A stretch of 64,000 bases of DNA, taken from Phycisphaerae bacterium (GTDB lineage: Bacteria; Planctomycetota; Phycisphaerae; UBA1845; Fen-1342). This document shows, piece after piece, positions 4,257 to 37,859 of the stretch. Position numbers and translations under genes: made by a program. Location: contig JAJVHV010000010.1 of the NCBI GenBank assembly GCA_022072445.1, positions 62,001 to 126,000 on the forward strand. Reading direction: 5' to 3'. The notes under the pieces were generated by a model. That model searched no databases. It worked only from the letters and a program-made list of their open reading frames with translations, and was not told where the DNA came from. Position 1 is the first letter of the stretch; each line of letters opens with the position of its first letter.

Positions 4257-6362
4257 GTGACTCCCATGGACCCGATTCAGAAAATCAGAAACATCGGCAT
4301 TTCCGCCCACATCGACTCCGGTAAAACCACGCTCAGCGAGCGCATCCTCTTCTACAGCGGGCGGATTCACAAGATGGGTGAGGTTCACGACGGGACCGCC
4401 GGCGGCGGCGCGACCATGGACCACATGGAGCTTGAGAAGGAGCGGGGCATCACGATCACGTCGGCCGCCACCCACCTCGAGTGGCTCGACCACCAGATCA
4501 ACCTGATCGACACGCCCGGACACGTCGACTTCACCATCGAAGTCGAACGCTCGCTGCGCGTGCTTGACGGCGCCATCCTCGTGCTGTGCGGCGTGGGTGG
4601 CGTGCAGTCGCAGTCGCTGACGGTCGATCGGCAGATGAAGCGCTACGGCGTTCCGCGGCTGGCGTTCATCAACAAGCTCGACCGCGTCGGGGCCGACCCG
4701 GCCCGCGTCGTCGGCGAGATCGAGACCAAGCTCGGCCTCGAAGCTGTGCCGATTCAGCTACCCATTGGATCCGAGCAGGAATTCAAGGGCGTCGTCGACC
4801 TCGTCACGATGCAGGCGGTCTACTTCGACGGCCCGAAGGGCGAAGACGTGCGTTGCATCGACATCCCCGCCGAACTCCGCGACGCGGCCGACCGCGCCCG
4901 CCACGGCCTGCTCGACTCGCTGTCGCTCTACGACGACGAGCTGATGGAAATGCTACTGGAAGGCAGCGATCCCAGCATCGACCAGCTCCACACCATCATC
5001 CGCCGTCTGACCATCGGGCGCGAAATCGTGCCGGTGCTGATGGGGACGGCGTTCAAGAACAAGGGCGTGCAGCCGTTGCTCGACGCCGTCGTCCGATATC
5101 TGCCGTCGCCGACCGACCGCATGTATTTCGTCAAGGACAGCGACAACGACAACGCCGAAGTTCCGATCACCGCCGACCCCGACGCGCCGGCCGTGGCGAT
5201 GGCCTTCAAGATCGTGGACGAGACCTTCGGCCAGCTCACCTACACGCGCGTCTATCAGGGCCAGATTCGCAAGAGCGAAACGTACCTCAACCCGCGCACC
5301 CGCCGCACGCAGCGCGTCGGCCGGATGGTCCGCATGCACGCGGACGAGAAGGAAGACGTGACCGAGGCCGGCCCGGGCGACATCGTGGCGCTGATCGGCG
5401 TGGATTGTGCCAGCGGCGACACGCTCTGCGACGAGTCGGTCAGCTATTCGCTTGAGAGCATTTACGCGCCCGAGCCCGTCATCTCGCTGGCGATCGCCCC
5501 GGTGAAGACCGGCGACCGCGACAAGTTATCGAAGGCCCTGGCGCGCTTCATGCGCGAAGACCCGACGTTCCACGTCCGCAGCGACCCGGAGAGCAACGAG
5601 ACGATCATCTCGGGCATGGGCGAGCTGCACCTTGAGATTTACGTCGAGCGCATCCGGCGCGAGTACAACGTCGAAGTCGAGGTCGGCGCGCCGAAGGTCA
5701 ACTACCGCGAAGCGCCCACCGTCGAGGCCGAGTTCGACCACAAGCACAAGAAGCAGACCGGCGGCTCCGGCCAGTATGGCCACGTCGTCGGGCGGATGGT
5801 GCCGCTCCCGCCTGATTCCGAGGTGGATTACGAGTTCGAGAACAAGGTCTTCGGCGGGCGCATCCCGACCGAGTACATTCCCTCGTGCGACAAGGGCTTC
5901 CAGGCGGCCCGCATGAAGGGTCCGCAGGCGGGCTTTGAGATCGTGCGGGTCAAGATGGTGCTGGAGGACGGCTCGTCGCACGCGGTCGACTCGTCCGACA
6001 TCGCCTTTCAGATTGCGGCCCGCGACGCGTTTCAGCAGGCGTTCCTTCGCAGCAAGCCGGTCATCCTCGAGCCGATCATGAACGTCGAGGTCGAAGTGCC
6101 CAACGAATACCAGGGCGCCGTTATCGGCGATCTGTCGTCGCGCCGCGGCGTCATCCACGGCACCGACAGCAAGGGCGCCTCGACGGTCATCACGGCCACC
6201 GTTCCGCTGGCGAACATGTTCGGCTACTCGACCGACATTCGCTCGATGACGCAGGGCAAGGGCACGTTCTCGATGGAGTTCGCGCACTACGAGCGCGCCC
6301 CGCGCGAGGTTCAGGAAGAGGTCATCGCCAAGGCCAAGGAACGCGCCGCCGCCAGAAAGTAG
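4257..6362 (+). CDS. fusA: Translation elongation factor G (spdEFG1 / mitochondrial EFG1-like type)
   Basis: 701 residues from GTG 4257; an ATG nine bases later (4266) gives [13 protein letters not shown] and is an equally good start. EF-G is the ribosomal GTPase that drives translocation of tRNA and mRNA. The G motifs are intact: AHIDSGKTT (17-25), [26 protein letters not shown]. Domains II-V follow, including domain IV with the [13 protein letters not shown] segment and a C-terminal [14 protein letters not shown]. The G-domain stretch [20 protein letters not shown] matches the wording of mitochondrial EFG1 and the spirochaete/planctomycete/deltaproteobacterial spdEFG1 group, not classical EF-G (SGVEPQSETVWRQ). 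It sits alone, outside a str operon. No Shine-Dalgarno sequence is evident. Confidence 0.96.
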
Positions 6363-6365
6363 CCA

Positions 6366-6392
6366 GCCGAGCCCCGACCGTCAGGGAGGGGT
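6366..6392. repeat. 27-bp dispersed repeat downstream of fusA
   Basis: The segment GCCGAGCCCCGACCGTCAGG and its continuation to 6392 is the reverse complement, with one mismatch, of 60520-60546 inside the 237-bp tandem repeat. It lies in the short convergent gap after the fusA stop codon. Confidence 0.7.
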
Positions 6393-6482
6393 TCTCGCTG
6401 AGCGTGCCGTCAAACTCGGCGCTTGCGCCCACTCGAGCACGAAGCGCCAGCGAGTGCCTCGTCCGCAACGATCGCGACGCCG

Positions 6483-26192: not shown

Positions 26193-27455
<1,263 letters not shown>

Positions 27456-27521: not shown

Positions 27522-29288
27522 TCACCCCTTCACGCCCGTCACCACCACGCCGCGGATGAACGCCCGCTGCGCCACGAAGAACAGCAGAATGCTCGGAACG
27601 ATCATCAGCACCGACGCCGCCATCAGCAGCTCCGACGTCTCACCGCCGTAGAACGCGCTTTTGAAATTCTGCAAGCCCAGCGCGACGGTCTGCTTGGCGT
27701 CGGAGTTGATGTAGAGCAGCGGGCCGAGCAGATCGTTCCAGGTTCCCATGAACGCGAAGACCGCGACCGTGACGACGATCGGCCGCGAAAGCGGCATCAT
27801 GATCAGCCACCAGGTCGCCAGCGGATTGCAGCCGTCGATGCGGGCCGAGTCTTCGAGGTCGTTGGGAATCGTCAGCATGAACTGCCGGAAGAGAAAGACG
27901 AAAAACGCCGACTGCGCCAGCAACTGCGGGACAATCAGCGGCTTGTAGGTGTCGAGCCAGCCGAGCTTCGCGAACAGCACGAAGGTCGGAATGCTGGTCA
28001 CCTGCCCGGGAATCATCATCGTCGCCAGCAGCATCAGAAACAGCGCGTCGCGCCCGCGGAACTCGAGCCGCGCGAACGCATAGCCCACCAGCCCGCAGCT
28101 CAGCACGTTCCCGATCACCACCGCCGCCGCGATGAACAGTGTGTTGGCCACGTAGCCGGCGAAATTCTGCTCCCGCCACGCAATCGCGTAGTTGTGCCAC
28201 TGCGGCCGGAGCGGAGCCTCCACGCGGATGCGATCGGCGGCCACGGCGATCATGCCCTGCGCCTCGCACTCCAGCCGCCCGTGCTCATCGGGCTGCGCCG
28301 AGCCGGCCACGCGCACCTCGACCGTCTGCCCGAGCACCCCGGCACTCACCAATTCGCGCGTCACGCGCTGCACCGCCCGGGCGTCGAGCGTCACGCTCCG
28401 CGGAGCGTCGAGCAGCTCCACGTTCGCCACGCCGCGGGACTCGTCGCGCCCGACCACGCGCAGCTCGCTGCGCCGGCCGTCGATCTCGGCGAAGCGGCGG
28501 AAGCGGCGCTCGATCCGCAGATCGCCCGCGGGTACGGTCAGCGCTTCCGCCGGCGGCCGCAGCCGGATGGTCGCAATGCCCGCGGCGCTGTTATCGGAGA
28601 GCAGCTCGACGGCCAGCGTGTGCCCGCGCCACTCGATTGTCATCGGCCCCGAAGCGTCGCCACGATTCAACCGCCGGGCGTCGACCTGCGCCGGCGGCGC
28701 ATCGGCCCAGGCGATCTTCACGTGGCCCTCGCGCGGCGGGGGGCTGGGCGTGCAGGTCACGGGCAGGTCCACGCCCAGCGCGCTCCAGAAAACAGCCAGC
28801 TCTTCCACGACGGTCACGTCAGCGGCGGGGACGTCGCGGCGCTCGAACGCGTCGACGACGCGCACTTCGACCGGGCCGCGCTCCGGCAACGCTGTTTCAC
28901 GTGAAACACGGCGGCGGGTGCGGTCGACGTCCGCGAAAAGCTCGGTTTGCGTGCTTCGGTGGAGACTCTGGGCCGGAATGCGAAGTCTGGCGCCCGCGTC
29001 GTGTGCCAGGCGGACGCGGGCCACGCCCGTGCCCGCGTTTTCGCCGTCGTCGATGATCGTCACCGGCAGTTCGGCGTCGTCGATTCGCAAGTAATAGCAG
29101 GGTGTGACCGGGAGCCAGTCGGGCGGGGCGACGCTGAGGCGGTCGTGCGTCTTGAGACTTGCCAGCAGCAGCCAGTAGAGCGGAAAGATGATCGGCAGCG
29201 CACCCGCCACGAGCACGACGAACATCGTCGCGCGGAACCAGGCCGGTTCGCGGCGGCCTTCGCTGGCGATGGGGCGGCGCGCCATCAT
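27522..29288 (-). CDS. Carbohydrate ABC transporter permease (MalG-like) with ~300-residue insertion
   Basis: 588 residues from the ATG at 29288, overlapping the upstream stop by four bases (ATGA). Normal MalG-type permeases have about 280 residues. Here TM1 (20-45) is followed by PPDWLP, then the sequence departs from the family until HNYAIAWREQNFAGYVANTLF (366-385), where the remaining five helices follow normally. The EAA loop is EDSARIDGCNPLATWWLIMMPL (479-500). The inserted segment (about 65-362) should lie outside the membrane and holds three similar units near 76-111, 227-262 and 276-311 with D.....GVA.V.L...........A. pattern. A parS-type site lies within the insertion (codons 127-132). 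Confidence 0.9.
   Translation of the reverse strand: MMARRPIASEGRREPAWFRATMFVVLVAGALPIIFPLYWLLLASLKTHDRLSVAPPDWLPVTPCYYLRIDDAELPVTIIDDGENAGTGVARVRLAHDAGARLRIPAQSLHRSTQTELFADVDRTRRRVSRETALPERGPVEVRVVDAFERRDVPAADVTVVEELAVFWSALGVDLPVTCTPSPPPREGHVKIAWADAPPAQVDARRLNRGDASGPMTIEWRGHTLAVELLSDNSAAGIATIRLRPPAEALTVPAGDLRIERRFRRFAEIDGRRSELRVVGRDESRGVANVELLDAPRSVTLDARAVQRVTRELVSAGVLGQTVEVRVAGSAQPDEHGRLECEAQGMIAVAADRIRVEAPLRPQWHNYAIAWREQNFAGYVANTLFIAAAVVIGNVLSCGLVGYAFARLEFRGRDALFLMLLATMMIPGQVTSIPTFVLFAKLGWLDTYKPLIVPQLLAQSAFFVFLFRQFMLTIPNDLEDSARIDGCNPLATWWLIMMPLSRPIVVTVAVFAFMGTWNDLLGPLLYINSDAKQTVALGLQNFKSAFYGGETSELLMAASVLMIVPSILLFFVAQRAFIRGVVVTGVKG
28893..28908. other. parS: parS-type partition site (inside a coding region)
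   Basis: TGTTTCACGTGAAACA is a perfect 16-bp palindrome identical to the consensus bound by chromosomal ParB proteins in many bacteria. It lies inside the insertion of the permease gene, where it encodes RVSRET. A second identical site is at 59582-59597. A random exact match in 64 kb is very unlikely. Confidence 0.85.
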
Positions 29289-31726
29289 GCCCGCTTACCT
29301 CGCGCCGCCTCGTAGTGCACCCACAGCGGCGAGGATTTGAAGACCAGCGCGGTGAACGCCAGGATGATCGAGAACAGAATCCACGCCAGCGCCGAAGCGT
29401 AGCCCAGCCGGTACTTGAAGAACGCCTCGCGGAAAAGGTGCAGACCGTAGAACAGGGCCGAGTCCGCCGGTCCGGTAAACCCGTCGAAGATGACGAAGGC
29501 CAGGTTGAAGACCTGGAACGAGCCGATGATGCCCATCACGAGGTTGAAGAGGATGACCGGCGAGAGCATCGGCAGCGTGACGTGCACGAATCGCGCCCAG
29601 CGCCCGGCGCCGTCGATCTCGGCGGCCTCGTACAGCTGCGTGGGGATGTTCTGGAGGCCGGCCAGGTAGATGATCATTCCGCCGCCGACCGTCCAGAGAC
29701 TGACGACCACGAAGATGTAGGGGGTAAAGACCTTGCTCTCCAGCCAGGTGATCGGGAAGGGCTGCCCGAAGTACTCGACCAGGTGCGCGATCCAGCCGCC
29801 GACGTTCAGCAGCTCGATCACGCGGTTCACCCAGCCGTGGTTGGCGTCGAAGAGGTGCCACCACAGCACGGCCGTCGCGACCGCGGGCAGCACCGCGGGA
29901 ATGTAATAGAGCGTGCGGAAGAGCGTGATGCCTGGGACGCGCTGGTTCATCATCACGGCCAGAATGACGCCGGCCACCAGCCCGGCCGGCACCGAGAGCA
30001 GCGCGTAGCGGAACGTGACCCAGAGCGATACCCAGAACTTCGGATCGCTGCCGGACAGCGCCAGGCGGTAGTTTTCCGCCCCGATGAACTCGCTGCGCGT
30101 GAACTGCGCCAGCGACTGCCACTGCGCGAATGAGAGCACAAACGAGACCAGGATCGGGCCGGCGGCAAAAACCAGAAAGCCAAGCAGCCACGGCGCCACC
30201 AGCGCGTAGCCCCAGCGCTCCTCACGCCGCGCCAGCAGCGACGGCGGCTTGCGCCGCCCCGCAAAGCGCAGCAGCAGCAAGACGGCCGGCGCCGCCGCCA
30301 ATCCAACCGCCAGCATGCCGAACGACGTGCTGCGGCGGACCGGGCGGTCGCGCTGCAGGATGCGATTGCCCTGCGTGGTCATCAGCTCGCACGCGCGGCG
30401 GGCGTCGTAGGGCGGATTGTCAAGTGCCAGCAGCCGATCGAGCTGATCGTTGATGCACTCGTAAACGTCCATGTAATACTGTCGCGTGAAGAAGGGCGGC
30501 TGGGCGTAGCCGTGCTCGATGTCGTGCGTCAGCACCCACTTGCTGGCCGGACGCGCGTCCGGGTCGCGCGCCAGCGTGCGCTCCAGCATCGAGCGCCGCG
30601 CCGGCATGAAGACCTGATACTGGCTCGTGATGTCCACCCCCGCCGGACTGACCATGAACTTGAGAAAGCGCAGTGCCGCTTCCGGATGCCGGCACTGCTT
30701 CGAGACGCCCCACGCGTTGGTGTAGACAATCGAGGCGCGCGTTCCGTCGGGGCCGCGCGGAAGAGGCGCGATGTCCCAGTCGAGGTTACGGGCTTCGGCG
30801 CGGGTGCGCGGGATGCCGAAGATGCCGTAGACGAACATGCCCAGCGTGCCGCGCGTGATGCCGATGTCCTGCTTGTGCGGCACCTGCCCGGGCGGGCAGA
30901 CGCGATCGACGTATTTCAGCCGCGAGAGGAACTCGAGCGCCTCGACCGTCCGCGGATCGTCCGCCACGACGCGCGTGCCGTCTTCGCTCACCAGCCGGCC
31001 GCCGTTCTGCCGGATGAACGTCTCCGGCCCGTGCTGCCACTTGGCGTAGTGAAAGCCGTAGCTGACGACGCGCGTCGGGTCGAATCCGGGTTGATCGGGC
31101 CGCCGGCCGGCATCGTCGCGGGTCAGCGCCAAGGCGCGCTGCCGCAGCCCCTCCCAATCCCAATCCGCGGTCGGATAGGGCACGTGATATTTGTCGAACA
31201 GGTCTTTCAGGTAGAAGACGACGAAGATGTTGTAGTTCACCGGCATGACGTACAGCCGGCCGTTGCGCATCAACGGCTGCACCGTTTGCGGGAAAAAGTC
31301 CGGCGGCGTCCCGTCCGCACCGCCGAAGAGCGCGGCTTTCAGCTCCGGGTCGGCGTCGAGGTGGGGCGTGAGATCGAGCAGAGCGTCGGCTTCGACGTAA
31401 TAGTCGAGGTTGTCGCACAACACGTAGATCAGGTCGGGCGCCACGCCGGCGGCGATCATCGTGTCGGTCTTGCGCTCCAGGCTGGTCTGAAGTAGATTGA
31501 GGTGAATGTCGGGGTTGGCAGCCTCGAAGGCCGCCTTGATGGCCCGCAGCTCGTCGCGGTCCGGCTTGTACCCGCCGCGGCAGATCGTCAGCAAGATCTT
31601 GTCTTTGGGAAGAGCGGCGGCGTCGCGCAGCGTCAGGCCGCAGACCACGGCGACGGCCAGCAGCCCCAGCAGCAGACCGAGCAGCCAGCGATCGCTGTTC
31701 GCCAGGATGTTGAAGAAGGCGCGCAT
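29285..31726 (-). CDS. Fusion of a sugar-binding protein and a MalF-like ABC permease
   Basis: 813 residues from the ATG at 31726. One TM helix (about 14-32) precedes an extracellular solute-binding domain of the ABC sugar type (44-455): ILLTICRGGYKPDRDELRAIKAAFEAANPDI, APDLIYV, YVMPVNYNIFVVFYLKDLFDKY, and GVSKQCRHPEAALRFLKFMVSP. A second helix (467-488) leads into a complete six-helix permease (503-800) with EAA loop YEAAEIDGAGRWARFVHVTLPML (699-721). Separate proteins in ordinary importers are thus one chain, tethering the receptor to the channel. The partner permease is the next gene (4-bp overlap). No ATPase gene (MsmK/UgpC type) is nearby. Substrate probably a sugar. Confidence 0.92.
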   Translation of the reverse strand: MRAFFNILANSDRWLLGLLLGLLAVAVVCGLTLRDAAALPKDKILLTICRGGYKPDRDELRAIKAAFEAANPDIHLNLLQTSLERKTDTMIAAGVAPDLIYVLCDNLDYYVEADALLDLTPHLDADPELKAALFGGADGTPPDFFPQTVQPLMRNGRLYVMPVNYNIFVVFYLKDLFDKYHVPYPTADWDWEGLRQRALALTRDDAGRRPDQPGFDPTRVVSYGFHYAKWQHGPETFIRQNGGRLVSEDGTRVVADDPRTVEALEFLSRLKYVDRVCPPGQVPHKQDIGITRGTLGMFVYGIFGIPRTRAEARNLDWDIAPLPRGPDGTRASIVYTNAWGVSKQCRHPEAALRFLKFMVSPAGVDITSQYQVFMPARRSMLERTLARDPDARPASKWVLTHDIEHGYAQPPFFTRQYYMDVYECINDQLDRLLALDNPPYDARRACELMTTQGNRILQRDRPVRRSTSFGMLAVGLAAAPAVLLLLRFAGRRKPPSLLARREERWGYALVAPWLLGFLVFAAGPILVSFVLSFAQWQSLAQFTRSEFIGAENYRLALSGSDPKFWVSLWVTFRYALLSVPAGLVAGVILAVMMNQRVPGITLFRTLYYIPAVLPAVATAVLWWHLFDANHGWVNRVIELLNVGGWIAHLVEYFGQPFPITWLESKVFTPYIFVVVSLWTVGGGMIIYLAGLQNIPTQLYEAAEIDGAGRWARFVHVTLPMLSPVILFNLVMGIIGSFQVFNLAFVIFDGFTGPADSALFYGLHLFREAFFKYRLGYASALAWILFSIILAFTALVFKSSPLWVHYEAARGKRA

Positions 31727-31889
31727 GCCTGTGACGCGCAGGATAGCGCGTCGACGGCGCGGGAACAAGCACGGGAAATGTGCGGCGGAGTGGGGTGCGG
31801 CTCGCAGCCGGAGGCGGCAGCGTCGCGCCCGGCTACGGAGATGGCGCGACGGCGTATTGGATTGACCCCGGGGTGGCGCCGGCGGTAAC

Positions 31890-33941
31890 ATGCGAGTGTT
31901 TGGCGTTGCGCCTCGGGCTGGGGACGGAGGTGCGCATGTGCGGGTCGGGGTTGGTCGAGCGAGAGCCGGCGGGCAGCGGCGTGCCGCCGGCGCGGCGTCG
32001 ATATGCGCGGGTCGCGATTCGCGCGATTGGCGCGTTCATCCTCATGAGCGGGGGGGGCAAACTGTCTTAGGGGGTGATCCGTTCTGGGGTGTGTGGCGCT
32101 CGTGGGAAAGACGTCTTGAACCGACGCTCGGCGTGAGCGCCGATCGGATCGTCCAGGTCGGAAACTTCAAGATCGCTTGTTACGACAAGAGCGGCGTCGA
32201 GCAATGGCGCGCCAAGCTGGGGCCGATCGACGAGGATTCGACGACCTGGAGCAGCGTGGACTTCTGGGACGGGTCTGCGAGCGACAGAGTCACTGACGCG
32301 CGCGTCCTGTTCGACCAGTTCAGCAACCGATTTGTCGTCACCACCATCGAGATCGACATCGTTCCCTGTTTCATCGACATTGCCATTTCGAAGACGGCGA
32401 CGCCGGCCAATTCGCGCGGCGACTACAACAACGGCGACCCGGAGGCGGCCTGGTACAAGTTCCGGGTGAACGCGACGCTCTACCCATGCCCGCCGCCTGA
32501 CGAGGCCACGCCCTACTCGATTGACTACCCGACGCTGGCCGTGACCGGCGGCGCGGGTCCTGACGACGGGCTGATCGTCATCACGTCGCGCGAGACGGGC
32601 GGGGCGGAATTGCCGCAGTGTTTCATGGGTCACGGCGTCCACTTCCTTCGAAAGCCACCGACCGGAAGCTGGACGTATGATCCAATCTTCTACGCGTCGG
32701 CCAGCAATTACCGAAACCTCGGCCTGGTAGGGCCGGCAAACGTAAATAACTTCGTGTCGCTTCCAATGCCGGCGCACTTCTTCGGAACCGTTTCACCCGA
32801 AACGGTGTACGTGGCACAGATCGCGTCATTTGGGCAACAGCCTGGAGTTTTAAGGCTGACGGCAGTAACCAACGTTTGGGCCGCGCTCACCAAAGCACAG
32901 CATGATCTATCAGTTGACCAGATCGATCAACTTGCCGGTCCAGTTCCCAAGCAACTTTGCCCGCCCCCGACTGGATCGTCCAGTTGGATTGATCCGACAC
33001 CGGGAAACATCCAGAGCGTTGCATGGCGGAATGGTCGTTTGTATTGCGCGTACGAGCATTTCAAGCCAGCTTACGCGGGTGGTCCGGTTACCCGCTTCGT
33101 AGCCCGCTGGAACGAAATCGATCTCAATGGTTGGCCGCACTCAGGTCAATCGCCAACGGTGCGACAGAAGGGAGTTCTTGACGGTGGTCGTGTGTTCTAC
33201 AACGCGGCCCAGGCTGACGATCGGCCAGTCCATTATCTTTATCCCATGCTCATGCCGATGCCGAACGGCGACATTTCCCTGTTCGTGTCTCGCGCGTACG
33301 AGAAGGGATTCATGAGCCTTCACGCTACTGCCCATCGCGCCGCGCTCGACCCGCTTGATCACATGGGCGCCGCTTTGGCTCTGCTGCGCGGACCGCAGGT
33401 TGGCGTTACGACCCTCGACGAACTCGGCCGCCCAGTCGACGATGGTGATGTCTCATGGGGTGAGTACAACGGCATCGCGCTCGACCCGGCCGACGGCTCA
33501 CGAATCTGGACTGTGGGTGTCGTCGGCCGCTGCGCTCATCCGATCTCGATCTGCACGACGTGCCCCGGCGGGGGCCAGCGTCAGGGAAAGCTCTGGGCCA
33601 GCGTAGGAAGCTACGTCGCATCCACGGCCCCGACGCATGTCCTAACGCTGCGACGGCCGAACGTGGACCTCCCTTCCGCGCGCATCAAGATCATGCCGCC
33701 GGACACCGGCGCGCAGCTCGACACGATCCTGACCTCCACGACGACTTCGGCCCAATACCGATACGCACAGGGAACTGCGGTGACACTTCGCGCACCGGAG
33801 GATGAGGACGTGCCACCGTATGAGTTTGTCCACTGGTTGCTTGACGGCGAACCAGCACCACCGCTTCCTGGCGATCCGCGACAAGTTCAGGTCACGATGT
33901 CGCAAGATCACACGGTCATTCCGCTCTTTCAGCTTCCCTGA
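31890..33941 (+). CDS. Secreted beta-propeller-like protein with InlB-type C-terminal repeat; N-terminus doubtful
   Basis: 683 residues if read from ATG 31890, but the first 60 are Arg/Gly-rich and lack a signal peptide. The believable protein starts around GDPFWGVWRSWERRLEPTLGVSADRIVQVGNFKIACYDKSG. A run of eight G at 32050-32057 lies just before it; a one-base slip there would join it to another frame that has a hydrophobic stretch (VAIRAIGAFILM). The body (about 75-560) looks like a beta-propeller (repeated WDG, DQFSNRFVVTT, VAWRNGRLYCAYE). The tail (575-683) resembles a bacterial InlB/listeria-type repeat: ARIKIMPPDTG...WLLDGEPAPP...VTMSQDHTVIPLF. It is followed after 13 bp by a PEP-CTERM gene. 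Confidence 0.75.
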   Translation: MRVFGVAPRAGDGGAHVRVGVGRARAGGQRRAAGAASICAGRDSRDWRVHPHERGGQTVLGGDPFWGVWRSWERRLEPTLGVSADRIVQVGNFKIACYDKSGVEQWRAKLGPIDEDSTTWSSVDFWDGSASDRVTDARVLFDQFSNRFVVTTIEIDIVPCFIDIAISKTATPANSRGDYNNGDPEAAWYKFRVNATLYPCPPPDEATPYSIDYPTLAVTGGAGPDDGLIVITSRETGGAELPQCFMGHGVHFLRKPPTGSWTYDPIFYASASNYRNLGLVGPANVNNFVSLPMPAHFFGTVSPETVYVAQIASFGQQPGVLRLTAVTNVWAALTKAQHDLSVDQIDQLAGPVPKQLCPPPTGSSSWIDPTPGNIQSVAWRNGRLYCAYEHFKPAYAGGPVTRFVARWNEIDLNGWPHSGQSPTVRQKGVLDGGRVFYNAAQADDRPVHYLYPMLMPMPNGDISLFVSRAYEKGFMSLHATAHRAALDPLDHMGAALALLRGPQVGVTTLDELGRPVDDGDVSWGEYNGIALDPADGSRIWTVGVVGRCAHPISICTTCPGGGQRQGKLWASVGSYVASTAPTHVLTLRRPNVDLPSARIKIMPPDTGAQLDTILTSTTTSAQYRYAQGTAVTLRAPEDEDVPPYEFVHWLLDGEPAPPLPGDPRQVQVTMSQDHTVIPLFQLP

Positions 33942-33954
33942 GGAGGACCACACC

Positions 33955-34710
33955 ATGACTACGATGAAGAGTGCGACATGGTATGTGATGCACATTGGCG
34001 CAGCCGCCGCGCTGTTTGGTGGGAGCATTGCGATAGCACAGGATCCGCCGCGCGTGCGATTTTTCTTCGACACGAATGGCGTCGGCGAGCAGGGCGACCG
34101 CGGCAGTGGTGACTTGAGCTTCGAGAATCCTGTGGCACCGGGTGCCGACCGACTCTACTTGTACGGACAGTTTCTGAGCACACGGTATGACCAGTGGATC
34201 GGCATGGGATTTGACATTCAAGTGACCGGTGGGGGCCGAATCACGTCGTGGCACATTTACAACCACACGACCGGATTGGGGTCTCGTTGGCAGGAAGGCG
34301 TGCGGATGAGTGGGCAGACGCCGACCCCGTTCGTGAACGACGCCACGGTCGTATCGACCGGCATTGGTATGTTTCTTAAAGACGCGACGGTCTTTGATTC
34401 ACGCCACTTTCGCTCGCATCAGGAGGATCAGGTAACCGCGTTCGGCAACACTCTGCTAGGGTATATCGACGTCGACTCGAACGGCAGCCCGTACTCAGAA
34501 GTCCGCCTCGGAGTGGGCTCCTTTGGCTTTGATGCGAGAAACGTGTTTCCGATCGGCGTCGCCTTCGGCTTCGGCGACGAAGGCGCCGGCATCGAGAGCA
34601 ACAGCTACGGCGTGCAGAGCCCGATCGCCGACGCGACTATCATCCCCGAGCCAACCACGCTGCTGTCGGCGCTCGCAGCCGGCGCGGTATGGGTCAGCCG
34701 GCGACGCTGA
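33955..34710 (+). CDS. PEP-CTERM sorting-signal protein
   Basis: 251 residues from ATG 33955, with AGGAGG eight bases upstream (33941-33946). N-terminal signal peptide (VMHIGAAAALFGGSIAIAQ) and a C-terminal PEP-CTERM tripartite signal: PEPTTLL, hydrophobic helix, RRR. Such proteins are exported, processed by an exosortase and held in or released from the envelope; no exosortase gene is in the window. The body starts PPRVRFFFDTNG and ends with SPIADATIIPEP, close to the neighbouring gene's STLADATIVPEP. Cotranscribed with the beta-propeller gene. Function otherwise unknown. Confidence 0.9.
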   Translation: MTTMKSATWYVMHIGAAAALFGGSIAIAQDPPRVRFFFDTNGVGEQGDRGSGDLSFENPVAPGADRLYLYGQFLSTRYDQWIGMGFDIQVTGGGRITSWHIYNHTTGLGSRWQEGVRMSGQTPTPFVNDATVVSTGIGMFLKDATVFDSRHFRSHQEDQVTAFGNTLLGYIDVDSNGSPYSEVRLGVGSFGFDARNVFPIGVAFGFGDEGAGIESNSYGVQSPIADATIIPEPTTLLSALAAGAVWVSRRR

Positions 34711-34715
34711 CCAGG

Positions 34716-34785
34716 CCGAAGATTGAGGGGCGCGAAAGCTCGCTGGCCGACGCGATCATCATCCCCGAACTGGCGACGCTGGCCA
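34716..34785 (+). pseudogene. Remnant of a third PEP-CTERM gene tail
   Basis: Read in frame from 34716 the DNA gives PKIEGRESSLADAIIIPELA, parallel to VIEIDGRESTLADATIVPEP near the end of the next gene. The PEP motif has decayed to PEL and no hydrophobic-Arg tail or upstream body follows, so this looks like the residue of a duplicated and deleted paralogue between the two intact PEP-CTERM genes. Confidence 0.65.
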
Positions 34786-34803
34786 CTGTCCGGGAGGCGT
34801 ATC

Positions 34804-35523
34804 ATGCACCGTCTTAGACTGTTGATTGTTCTTAGCGTGACGGCCGTAGGAAGTGAGGCCTGGGCGGCGCGCTTCTGGTTCTCGCTGTCTGGTGTCGACG
34901 AGTTCCAACCCATTGACGGCACCCCGAGCGAGTTCACGGATTTCTTTAACGGTGTCAACCCAGAGCTTTCCGCCGATGTGGGTCGCGCCCGGCTCTACAT
35001 CTGGGGGACGCGCGATCCGTTCACTGACGGCGAGTACTTTCTGATCAGTTGGGACATTACGGCTTACGTCAGTCAGGGCAACGTACATCTCGTAGACAGC
35101 CGTATGTACAACTATTTCACCCCCGATGGGCGCCAGCGTTGGGACCTCGTTTTTCAGGGGACGCTTCTTGCCAATAAGCTCGATAACGCGAGCATGGTCG
35201 CGCAGTCGAATGGGTATGGATTCGGCTACAAGGGCGATGACCTGCAGCGCGATCCCGCGACCGACTCCATGCTGCTGGGCTTCGTCGAGCTGGAAATGTC
35301 GCCCGACGCGCGCGCCGACATCTTCTTCGGCGTCGGACCGGGCGGCATGGACGACATCCCCCTCCAGGAATTGTACTTTGGCTGGGGCGACGACCCAGTG
35401 ATCGAGATCGACGGCCGCGAGAGCACTCTGGCCGACGCGACCATCGTCCCCGAGCCGCCGACGCTGGCCCTGTTCCTGGCGGCGGGCGCCGCGACGATGC
35501 GCCGCCCACGCCGCCGGGCGTAG
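34804..35523 (+). CDS. PEP-CTERM sorting-signal protein (paralogue)
   Basis: 239 residues from ATG 34804. The signal peptide is MHRLRLLIVLSVTAVGSEAWA; the C-terminus has PEPPTLALFLAAGAATMRRPRRR, a PEP-CTERM signal. It resembles the preceding protein in layout: an early RFWFSLSGVDEF segment like RFFFDTNGVGEQ there, ARLYIWGT against DRLYLYGQ, LLGFVELEMSP against LLGYIDVDSN, and GRESTLADATIVPEP at the end. The gene copy between them has decayed (34716-34785). Likely an envelope or surface protein; no enzymatic motif seen. Confidence 0.9.
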   Translation: MHRLRLLIVLSVTAVGSEAWAARFWFSLSGVDEFQPIDGTPSEFTDFFNGVNPELSADVGRARLYIWGTRDPFTDGEYFLISWDITAYVSQGNVHLVDSRMYNYFTPDGRQRWDLVFQGTLLANKLDNASMVAQSNGYGFGYKGDDLQRDPATDSMLLGFVELEMSPDARADIFFGVGPGGMDDIPLQELYFGWGDDPVIEIDGRESTLADATIVPEPPTLALFLAAGAATMRRPRRRA

Positions 35524-35660: not shown

Positions 35661-37859
35661 GTGTATTCGCAGACTCGTCTGGTCCGATATGACATCCAGA
35701 TGCCGGCGAACGCCGCGCAGGAACTGCGCATGCCAACCGACAAGCACGCCTACGCCCGACCGACACGCGCCGAGGCGCTGCGCTTCCTGCGACTGCTGGA
35801 CGGAACGGGCCGCGACGACATCGCCTCCGTCTGTGACATGTGGGCCGCCGCCTTCACGCTCCGCATGGCCGCCGCGACCGACGAACAAGAGGTTCGACGC
35901 TATCGGCGGCTGGCGCAACGCCTGCGCGAGGCGCGTTTCACGCTGCTCGGCGACCACGATGAGCTGCTCGACGACGCCGAGGTCGGCGGCCGCGAAATCG
36001 CCGACAGCCTGACCGCACACTCGACGGTTGAGGACGCGCGACGCGAGGATCATTCGCTTGACGCCCATCCGTTCGACGTCGGCGCCGAATCGGCCGGCGA
36101 TGCGGGCCTTCCGAACGGCCGGGCGTTCGCCACTCCCGGTGCACCGTCACGCTGCCCGGAGTCCGAGGTACGCCTCGACCAACTCCGCAAGCCGGACGGG
36201 CGAGCCACGGGCCGCCGGCGGAACCGCGCGTCGACCGCATTCGTCGCCAGCCTGACGCTCGCGACGCCGGTGCTCCTGCTCTTGTCGGCGGCGCAGTACG
36301 TCATGCTCGGTTCGGCGGGGCCTGATTCGTTCCGCCAGCAGCCTCCGCCCGCGGTCGAACCGGCGGACGAGACCGACGTTGTCCTGCGCGACGACAAAGA
36401 GCGAACCTCCGACGACGCTCTCGCCGCGTGGGCGGTCCTGTTGACCGACTGGACGCTGCAGCGCGAGCGGGCCCGTGTTCAAGCAGCCGCGACCATGTGG
36501 CTGGCACAGGCGCGGCAGGCCGGATTGGCGGCGCTACGCGAAGTGCGGGCCGCGGCGGTCGCCGCGGCCGCTGAAATGCCGTCTGTCGTCACCGCCGATG
36601 ACGCGCCGTCGACGTCCGCGGGTGACGCACCACGCATGACTGCCGAGGAACTGGTGGCCGCGCTGAACGTCACAGGCGCTGCGGACGCCACCGACTCGTC
36701 GGGGTTTTCCCGCAGCGCGGTGGCGACTGAAACGGCCATCATTGTCAAGATCGACGAGCTGCTGGCGCGGGACGTGCTTCAGCCGCTCGCGGACGCCTGC
36801 GACGCGGCTCTTGCGGCCATGGCTCAATCTCGGAACACGCGGTCTGATCCGCCGGAGATTCAACGCTCCCGCGATTCAGCCTCCCTGCCGAAGGTCGCGC
36901 CCGCCGCCGACGCGGGTACGCGTGACACATCGCCTCCAGCTTACACCCTCGCCGCCGACGAACAGCCGGCCGCGCACGCGGACCTGGTGCTGGAGGTGCG
37001 CGAACCGGCGGAAGTAGCGGCTAGCGTCGAGGCCGGCGGCGGGTTTCCGCTCAGCGCCGACGAGGCCCGCGGGCAGCAGTCGCGCCAGGCCAGCGCCCTG
37101 GGCGTCGACGTCGTGCGCTCCATCCGCCTGGCGCGGCACGTGGCGATCAACGTCGTGCTGATTCCCGCGGGCGAGTTCGACATGGGCTCGCCCGACGCGG
37201 AGGAAGGGCGCTATGACGATGAAGGCCCGCAGCGCCGCGTCCGGATCACGCGCGCCTTTTACATCGGCGTCTGCGAGGTGACGCAGGCGCAGTGGCGGGC
37301 GGTGATGGGCTCGACGCAGCAGAGCTGGTTCAAGGGCGACGACCTGCCCGTCGAGTCGATTACCGCGCTCGATTGCCAGGAGTTCTGCCGCCGCCTGTCA
37401 CAAAGCAGCGGGATGATCGTGCGGCTGCCCAGCGAGGCCGAGTGGGAATACGCCTGCCGCGCCGGAACCGACGCGCCATTCGCTTTCGGCGCGACGATTT
37501 CGTCGCAGCGCGTGAATTTCGACGGATCGACGACGTATGGCGGTTCGGCGGCCGGGCTGAACCGCGAGCAGCCGACGCCGGTGGGCAGCCTCGAAGCGAA
37601 CGCCTGGGGTGTCTGCGACATGCACGGCAATGTGTGGGAGTGGTGCGCGGACTGGTACGCGCGCTATCCGGCGACGCCCCACGTCGTCGATCCCGAGGGA
37701 CCGCCGAACGGCGAGTATCGCGTGCTTCGCGGCGGATCGTGGGGCCGCGAGGCGGCGCTGTGCCGCAGCGCGGCGCGCGTTCGCACCAACCCGGCGGCGC
37801 GCAGCGCCGACAGCGGGTTCCGCGTCGTGGTCGAACTCGGCGCAGGCGCGACGGAATAG
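35661..37859 (+). CDS. Membrane protein with C-terminal SUMF1/formylglycine-generating-enzyme-like domain
   Basis: 732 residues from GTG 35661; ATG at 35700 is an alternative and neither has a clear SD. An N-terminal cytoplasmic part (1-190) looks helical, then one TM helix (192-216), a long Ala-rich, low-complexity extracytoplasmic linker (220-485), and a SUMF1-type domain (about 489-725): PAGEFDMGSPDAEEGRYDDEGPQ, VTQAQW, RLPSEAEWEYACRAG, GVCDMHGNVWEWCADWY, VLRGGSWGREAALCRSAARVR. The paired Cys needed for sulfatase activation are not evident, so it is probably one of the many SUMF1-fold proteins with other roles, common in planctomycetes. Confidence 0.85.
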   Translation: MYSQTRLVRYDIQMPANAAQELRMPTDKHAYARPTRAEALRFLRLLDGTGRDDIASVCDMWAAAFTLRMAAATDEQEVRRYRRLAQRLREARFTLLGDHDELLDDAEVGGREIADSLTAHSTVEDARREDHSLDAHPFDVGAESAGDAGLPNGRAFATPGAPSRCPESEVRLDQLRKPDGRATGRRRNRASTAFVASLTLATPVLLLLSAAQYVMLGSAGPDSFRQQPPPAVEPADETDVVLRDDKERTSDDALAAWAVLLTDWTLQRERARVQAAATMWLAQARQAGLAALREVRAAAVAAAAEMPSVVTADDAPSTSAGDAPRMTAEELVAALNVTGAADATDSSGFSRSAVATETAIIVKIDELLARDVLQPLADACDAALAAMAQSRNTRSDPPEIQRSRDSASLPKVAPAADAGTRDTSPPAYTLAADEQPAAHADLVLEVREPAEVAASVEAGGGFPLSADEARGQQSRQASALGVDVVRSIRLARHVAINVVLIPAGEFDMGSPDAEEGRYDDEGPQRRVRITRAFYIGVCEVTQAQWRAVMGSTQQSWFKGDDLPVESITALDCQEFCRRLSQSSGMIVRLPSEAEWEYACRAGTDAPFAFGATISSQRVNFDGSTTYGGSAAGLNREQPTPVGSLEANAWGVCDMHGNVWEWCADWYARYPATPHVVDPEGPPNGEYRVLRGGSWGREAALCRSAARVRTNPAARSADSGFRVVVELGAGATE

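Follow-up and report, generated by a model that had tools for sequence, protein, structure and literature searches.

A MalG-type permease from a Phycisphaerae bacterium with a periplasmic insert of six repeated units

What does a MalG-type permease do with some 300 additional residues between its first two membrane helices? The question is raised by a gene in the 64,000-nucleotide stretch of Phycisphaerae DNA analysed here (the window), which the original prediction had read as a MalG-type permease with an extracytoplasmic insertion containing three internal repeats, perhaps in contact with a fused binding protein. In the following sections we establish the identity of the permease and of its partner, describe the insert and its relatives, and weigh the roles that such a structure may have.

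The permease and its fused partner

The assignment to the MalG type is supported by several lines of evidence. BPD_transp_1 is found at residues 400-581 of the permease (E = 4.7e-17, Pfam), and the columns of the EAA-loop motif of MalG-type permeases are mostly invariant in the ortholog alignment. Of the NCBI equivalogs, UgpE, GlcU and MalG come closest, each below its own cut-off, and the predicted transmembrane domain (TMD) superposes on AlgM of the alginate transporter (4tqv_B) and on E. coli MalG (2r6g_G), with a VIA Z of about 20. With a MalG-like TMD fold, a BPD_transp_1 domain and an EAA loop, and with an oligosaccharide-type solute-binding protein (SBP) and a MalF partner in its operon, the protein takes the MalG position in a type I ABC importer of the CUT1 (oligosaccharide) family.

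The roughly 300 extra residues are present between TM1 and TM2, ahead of the HNYAIAW segment (Table 1). The position of the long insert of MalF, between TMS3 and TMS4, corresponds to the TMS1-2 loop of MalG (PMC3654945); this correspondence, and the superposition of the TMD, agree with the expectation that the extra residues form a periplasmic domain on the channel.

The SBP-MalF fusion gene lies upstream of the permease gene, with a 4-bp ATGA overlap, and its product likely starts at Met56 (position 31726). In the product, a TM helix precedes the CUT1-type binding domain, and a second TM helix connects this domain to the MalF-type permease half. Among solved structures, the nearest relative of the binding domain is the arabino-oligosaccharide-binding protein 6rjy (E = 7.1e-26). 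By direct reading, about 40 residues separate the first two permease helices of the MalF half, and a P2-like insertion is absent there. No ATPase gene adjoins the permease locus; one match to OB_MalK was found in the genome, on another contig, and its pairing with the permease is presumed.

On the opposite strand, immediately beyond the 3' end of the permease gene, the window encodes a Ser/Thr protein kinase (26193-27455, plus strand; Pkinase, E = 2.7e-53). Also on the plus strand are two adjoining secreted-looking proteins with PEP-CTERM-like tails and no Pfam match (33802-34710 and 34723-35523), and a protein that ends in an FGE-sulfatase domain (E = 1.7e-53), preceded by a long N-terminal part that matches no Pfam family (35661-37859).

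Table 1. Features of the permease gene and of its partner gene, in window coordinates
Feature	Position	Strand	Basis
MalG-type (CUT1) permease gene with six-unit insert	27522..29288	minus	ORF and translation, 588 aa
TM1, residues 16-44	29157..29243	minus	helix in AF2 model
Whole insert, residues 62-357, six predicted small beta-barrel units	28218..29105	minus	profiles and AF2 models
U1 (62-111), block A, best conserved unit	28956..29105	minus	profile comparison; mean pairwise identity 38%
U2 (112-160), block A	28809..28955	minus	hhalign match to U5, E 2.9e-11
U3 (161-209), block A	28662..28808	minus	hhalign match to U6, E 1.1e-6
U4 (210-259), block B, after loop 208-215	28512..28661	minus	hhalign match to U1, E 5.7e-8
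U5 (260-309), block B	28362..28511	minus	profile comparison
U6 (310-357), block B	28218..28361	minus	profile comparison
Permease core, residues 366-588, TM2 to end	27525..28193	minus	65-80% identity in orthologs
EAA-loop motif LEDSARIDGC (ATPase coupling helix)	27828..27860	minus	direct reading
SBP-MalF fusion partner gene	29285..31891	minus	868 aa as listed; SBP_bac_1 115-418, BPD_transp_1 637-847 (Pfam)
Solute-binding domain of partner, residues 96-520	30332..31606	minus	nearest solved relative 6rjy

Six units in two blocks

The insert comprises six units of about 50 residues each (U1 to U6). Unit profiles were built from five orthologs and compared by hhalign, and U1 was found to pair with U4, U2 with U5 and U3 with U6 (E-values in Table 1), the remaining pairs being weaker. 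The three repeats noted earlier, at residues 76-111, 227-262 and 276-311, are therefore true repeats, but they are parts of U1, U4 and U5 in a set of six units arranged as 2 x 3. When block A (the first 150 residues) was aligned with block B by hhalign, 139 columns were matched with a score of 111 (E = 1.2e-18); the highest score reached by 200 column shuffles was 19.7. Because the block-against-block alignment lies far above the shuffles and the units pair as described, the profile comparisons show that the insert arose by tandem duplication of a three-unit block. At the DNA level, the only tandem repeat found is a 22-bp array; a large repeat is absent, and we therefore take the block duplication to be old.

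Structure prediction yielded consistent models of these units. The AlphaFold2 (AF2) model of the full-length permease (18 homologs) has a pLDDT of 83.6, with the insert blocks at 85-95, and that of the insert alone (7 homologs) has a mean pLDDT of 91.5 and a pTM of 0.76. In the models, each unit runs by DSSP through strands 1-4, a three-residue helical turn at PAxxL, and strand 5; it is predicted with good confidence to be a small barrel of five strands, the fifth of which follows the short helical turn. Within a block, strand 5 of one unit continues into strand 1 of the next; between U3 and U4, residues 208-215 form a loop that interrupts the strand in both models. Both ends of the insert have to lead back to adjacent membrane helices, and the two blocks are therefore probably arranged as an up-and-down pair.

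The units resemble SH3-like small beta-barrels in the number of strands (five), in the short helical turn ahead of strand 5 and in a length of about 50 residues, a likeness judged by strand order only. As no solved structure matched a unit well, we infer an SH3-like barrel from this order; the units differ from SH3-like barrels in matching no named family and in a tandem 2 x 3 arrangement for which the PDB fold search gave no counterpart. Foldseek searches of the insert against the PDB and viral libraries returned nothing at E <= 0.001 (best E 0.05). The best VIA match, to RND-adaptor barrels, has a Z of 3.8 over 45 residues of one unit, and both HtrA/DegS and RND-adaptor proteins were rejected as fold relatives (Z < 4, a single unit spanned). 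In Pfam, no family was found for the insert at E up to 10, stray matches apart; one of these, to Trypsin_2 (E = 0.027, one ortholog), was discarded, as was an S-layer protein whose match, the best of the PDB sequence-profile search (E = 0.044), is not credible. The original prediction had likewise known of no named domain that matches.

Distribution and divergence of the insert

We considered the possibility, raised at the outset, that the insert is misassembled or frameshifted sequence inside a permease gene. One relative is indeed broken: in L067 (G016:C189, about 5200-6434), neither TM1 nor U1-U3 could be located upstream, and U6 contains a frameshift, so this copy is either a pseudogene or an assembly fault. 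However, intact in-frame orthologs with inserts of similar length (300-323 residues) occur in G013, G014, G005 and G010, which are four further genomes of this family, a matching split gene is found in a metagenome-assembled genome (MAG) of candidate division KSB1, and the GC3 of the window gene is even (0.87 in the insert, 0.91 in the core). Given the intact orthologs and the even GC3, we regard misassembly as virtually excluded.

In the KSB1 MAG the six-unit design is split across two contig ends, with TM1 to U5 on L149, and the end of U5, U6 and the core on L068. The two ends have 14 exact bases in common, in frame, and by this overlap are likely to be pieces of one gene; their GC content is 47-49%, whereas two Phycisphaerae loci have 63-67%.

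The six-unit insert is rare. Profile searches found it in six of the 27 genomes of the family, and no further family had a match among 397 genomes of the class. Across 392 genomes of the phylum, the insert profile gave only weak matches (E 0.003-0.01) besides the window's own. Among 82 KSB1-phylum genomes, the insert was found in the MAG already identified and in no other, while a profile search of the phyla of two one-unit genomes, made without a positive control, gave no match. The six-unit architecture has thus been kept across genomes and two phyla.

Shorter inserts occur at the same loop. In a tree of the MalG core, which comes from a quick IQ-TREE run (a careful search is incomplete), the six-unit permeases of Phycisphaerae and KSB1 group in a single clade (support 95), with three one-unit permeases as its sister (support 92); these ten permeases together also form a clade (support 95). 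The tree of the SBP-MalF partners mirrors that of MalG, the two genes having been inherited together. Two-unit inserts are placed elsewhere on the MalG tree, with at least three changes; L034, L035 and L127, on other Planctomycetota branches, carry two-unit-like inserts in the TM1-TM2 loop that were apparently gained independently. When one- and two-unit inserts were compared with the six-unit profile, L074, L127a and L034a beat 200 of 200 shuffles and the others did not, so that homology of the single inserts with the six-unit profile is unevenly supported. Two further Planctomycetota MalGs, L051 (G028:C110) and L044 (G030:C138), have unrelated TM1-TM2 loops of 195 and 336 residues, respectively; that of L051 shows a weak CBM_11 hint (E = 0.08).

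Sequence identity across orthologs is 26-36% in the insert and 65-80% in the core. In the same two ortholog pairs, identities are 34-36% for the insert, 59-65% for the SBP and 76-78% for MalF; by these values the insert is the fastest-changing part of the importer. The positions that are invariant within it are mostly V, G, P and L, and many of them look structural.

The genes beside the permease vary from locus to locus: the KSB1 copy has a GH29-type fucosidase ORF after it, and behind one of the one-unit copies lies an acetyl xylan esterase-like ORF.

Possible roles of the arm

The P2 domain of MalF contacts MalE, the N-terminal lobe of which lies mainly against MalG (PMC3150292). Like P2 in E. 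coli MalFGK2 (2r6g), the insert is rich in beta-strands and extends into the periplasm from the corresponding point of a CUT1 subunit, on the side that faces the binding protein. It differs in lying on MalG rather than on MalF and in consisting of six repeated units, P2 being a domain of about 180 residues; searches of Pfam and the PDB gave no sequence match relating the two, and P2 is not among the fold matches listed.

By analogy with P2 and MalE, we suggest, at about even chances, that the insert is a stiff periplasmic arm that docks or steadies the tethered binding protein. The TM1-TM2 loop of MalG would have grown into a stiff arm made up of six small beta-barrels; the arm would stand beside the binding protein, which a TM helix on either side anchors to the membrane, and would steady or clamp it, in the role of the P2 domain that the partner lacks. 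The importer would be driven by a MalK-type ATPase whose gene lies elsewhere in the genome. An arm flanking the SBP is the most economical reading, because P2 is absent from the MalF half, the MalG subunit has the arm and the binding domain is tied at both ends. Importers of the GlnPQ and OpuA type also have the binding protein covalently tied to the permease chain; here, by contrast, a CUT1-type SBP is fused to the MalF half and the arm is on the separate MalG half.

This suggestion needs to be interpreted cautiously. The insert diverges fastest of all parts of the importer, which is odd for a specific docking face, and a tethered binding protein may need no clamp, as insertless MalGs also adjoin SBP-MalF fusions. 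Every six-unit and one-unit locus with a readable upstream gene has an SBP-MalF fusion partner, and so do 25 sampled rows of insertless MalGs; an association of the arm with the fusion itself was dropped for this reason. Because the insert diverges rapidly and many insertless MalGs have fused partners, two other readings stay alive.

The arm may act mainly as a spacer or stiffener that sets the height or crowding of the importer; the fold alone would then matter, and the sequence could drift quickly. The prevalence of V, G, P and L among the invariant positions fits such a role, as does the retention of length and unit order while identity falls to the values given above, and the predicted unbroken strands between units suggest stiffness. 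On the other hand, exactly six units are kept, each of U1 to U6 with an identity specific to its position, and U1 is better conserved than the other units. A pure spacer needs none of these, and we hold this reading to be rather unlikely.

Alternatively, the arm might bind another periplasmic target, whether a glycan, peptidoglycan, a hydrolase or an outer-membrane partner, and so recruit the importer to the source of its substrate. Fast divergence of the insert beside a well-conserved SBP is consistent with this, as are the fucosidase ORF beside the KSB1 copy and the CBM_11 hint in the unrelated domain that occupies the same loop of another Planctomycetota MalG. The units themselves, however, have no carbohydrate-binding signature and few aromatic residues (7-19 per approximately 300 residues), and the genes beside the arm differ from locus to locus; binding of another ligand thus appears unlikely. 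It is also doubtful, though conceivable, that the units represent a new small-barrel repeat family that expands on the MalG subunits of CUT1 importers through duplication of units and of blocks, and that it provides a second receptor or capture arm in the periplasm, directed at a glycan, the wall or an outer-membrane partner and working with the MalF-fused SBP.

Large insertions in the TM1-TM2 loop of MalG are already known: MalG1 and MalG2 of Thermotogales have about 500 hydrophilic residues between TM1 and TM2, with unknown function (Noll et al. 2008, PMC2246101). In Thermotogales, MalF also keeps its P2 loop and no SBP fusion is reported. We found no literature on small-barrel arms of ABC importers; within the reach of the searches made, the combination of a six-unit, block-duplicated small-barrel arm with an SBP-MalF fusion appears to be new, and it offers a concrete comparison for the unexplained insertions of Thermotogales MalG. 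The MalG loop equivalent to P2 is a place where importers gain periplasmic domains, as one-, two- and six-unit inserts and unrelated domains are found there in different branches. The series from one to six units also provides a defined set for testing the effect of the arm on docking of the tethered binding protein.

The window's own genome also encodes an insertless MalG paralog (L003:1501-3111, minus strand; G000 contig C3). In this protein, a prolipoprotein diacylglyceryl transferase domain (LGT, E = 1.5e-30 in Pfam) precedes the permease domain (BPD_transp_1, E = 5.4e-17) as an in-frame N-terminal fusion.
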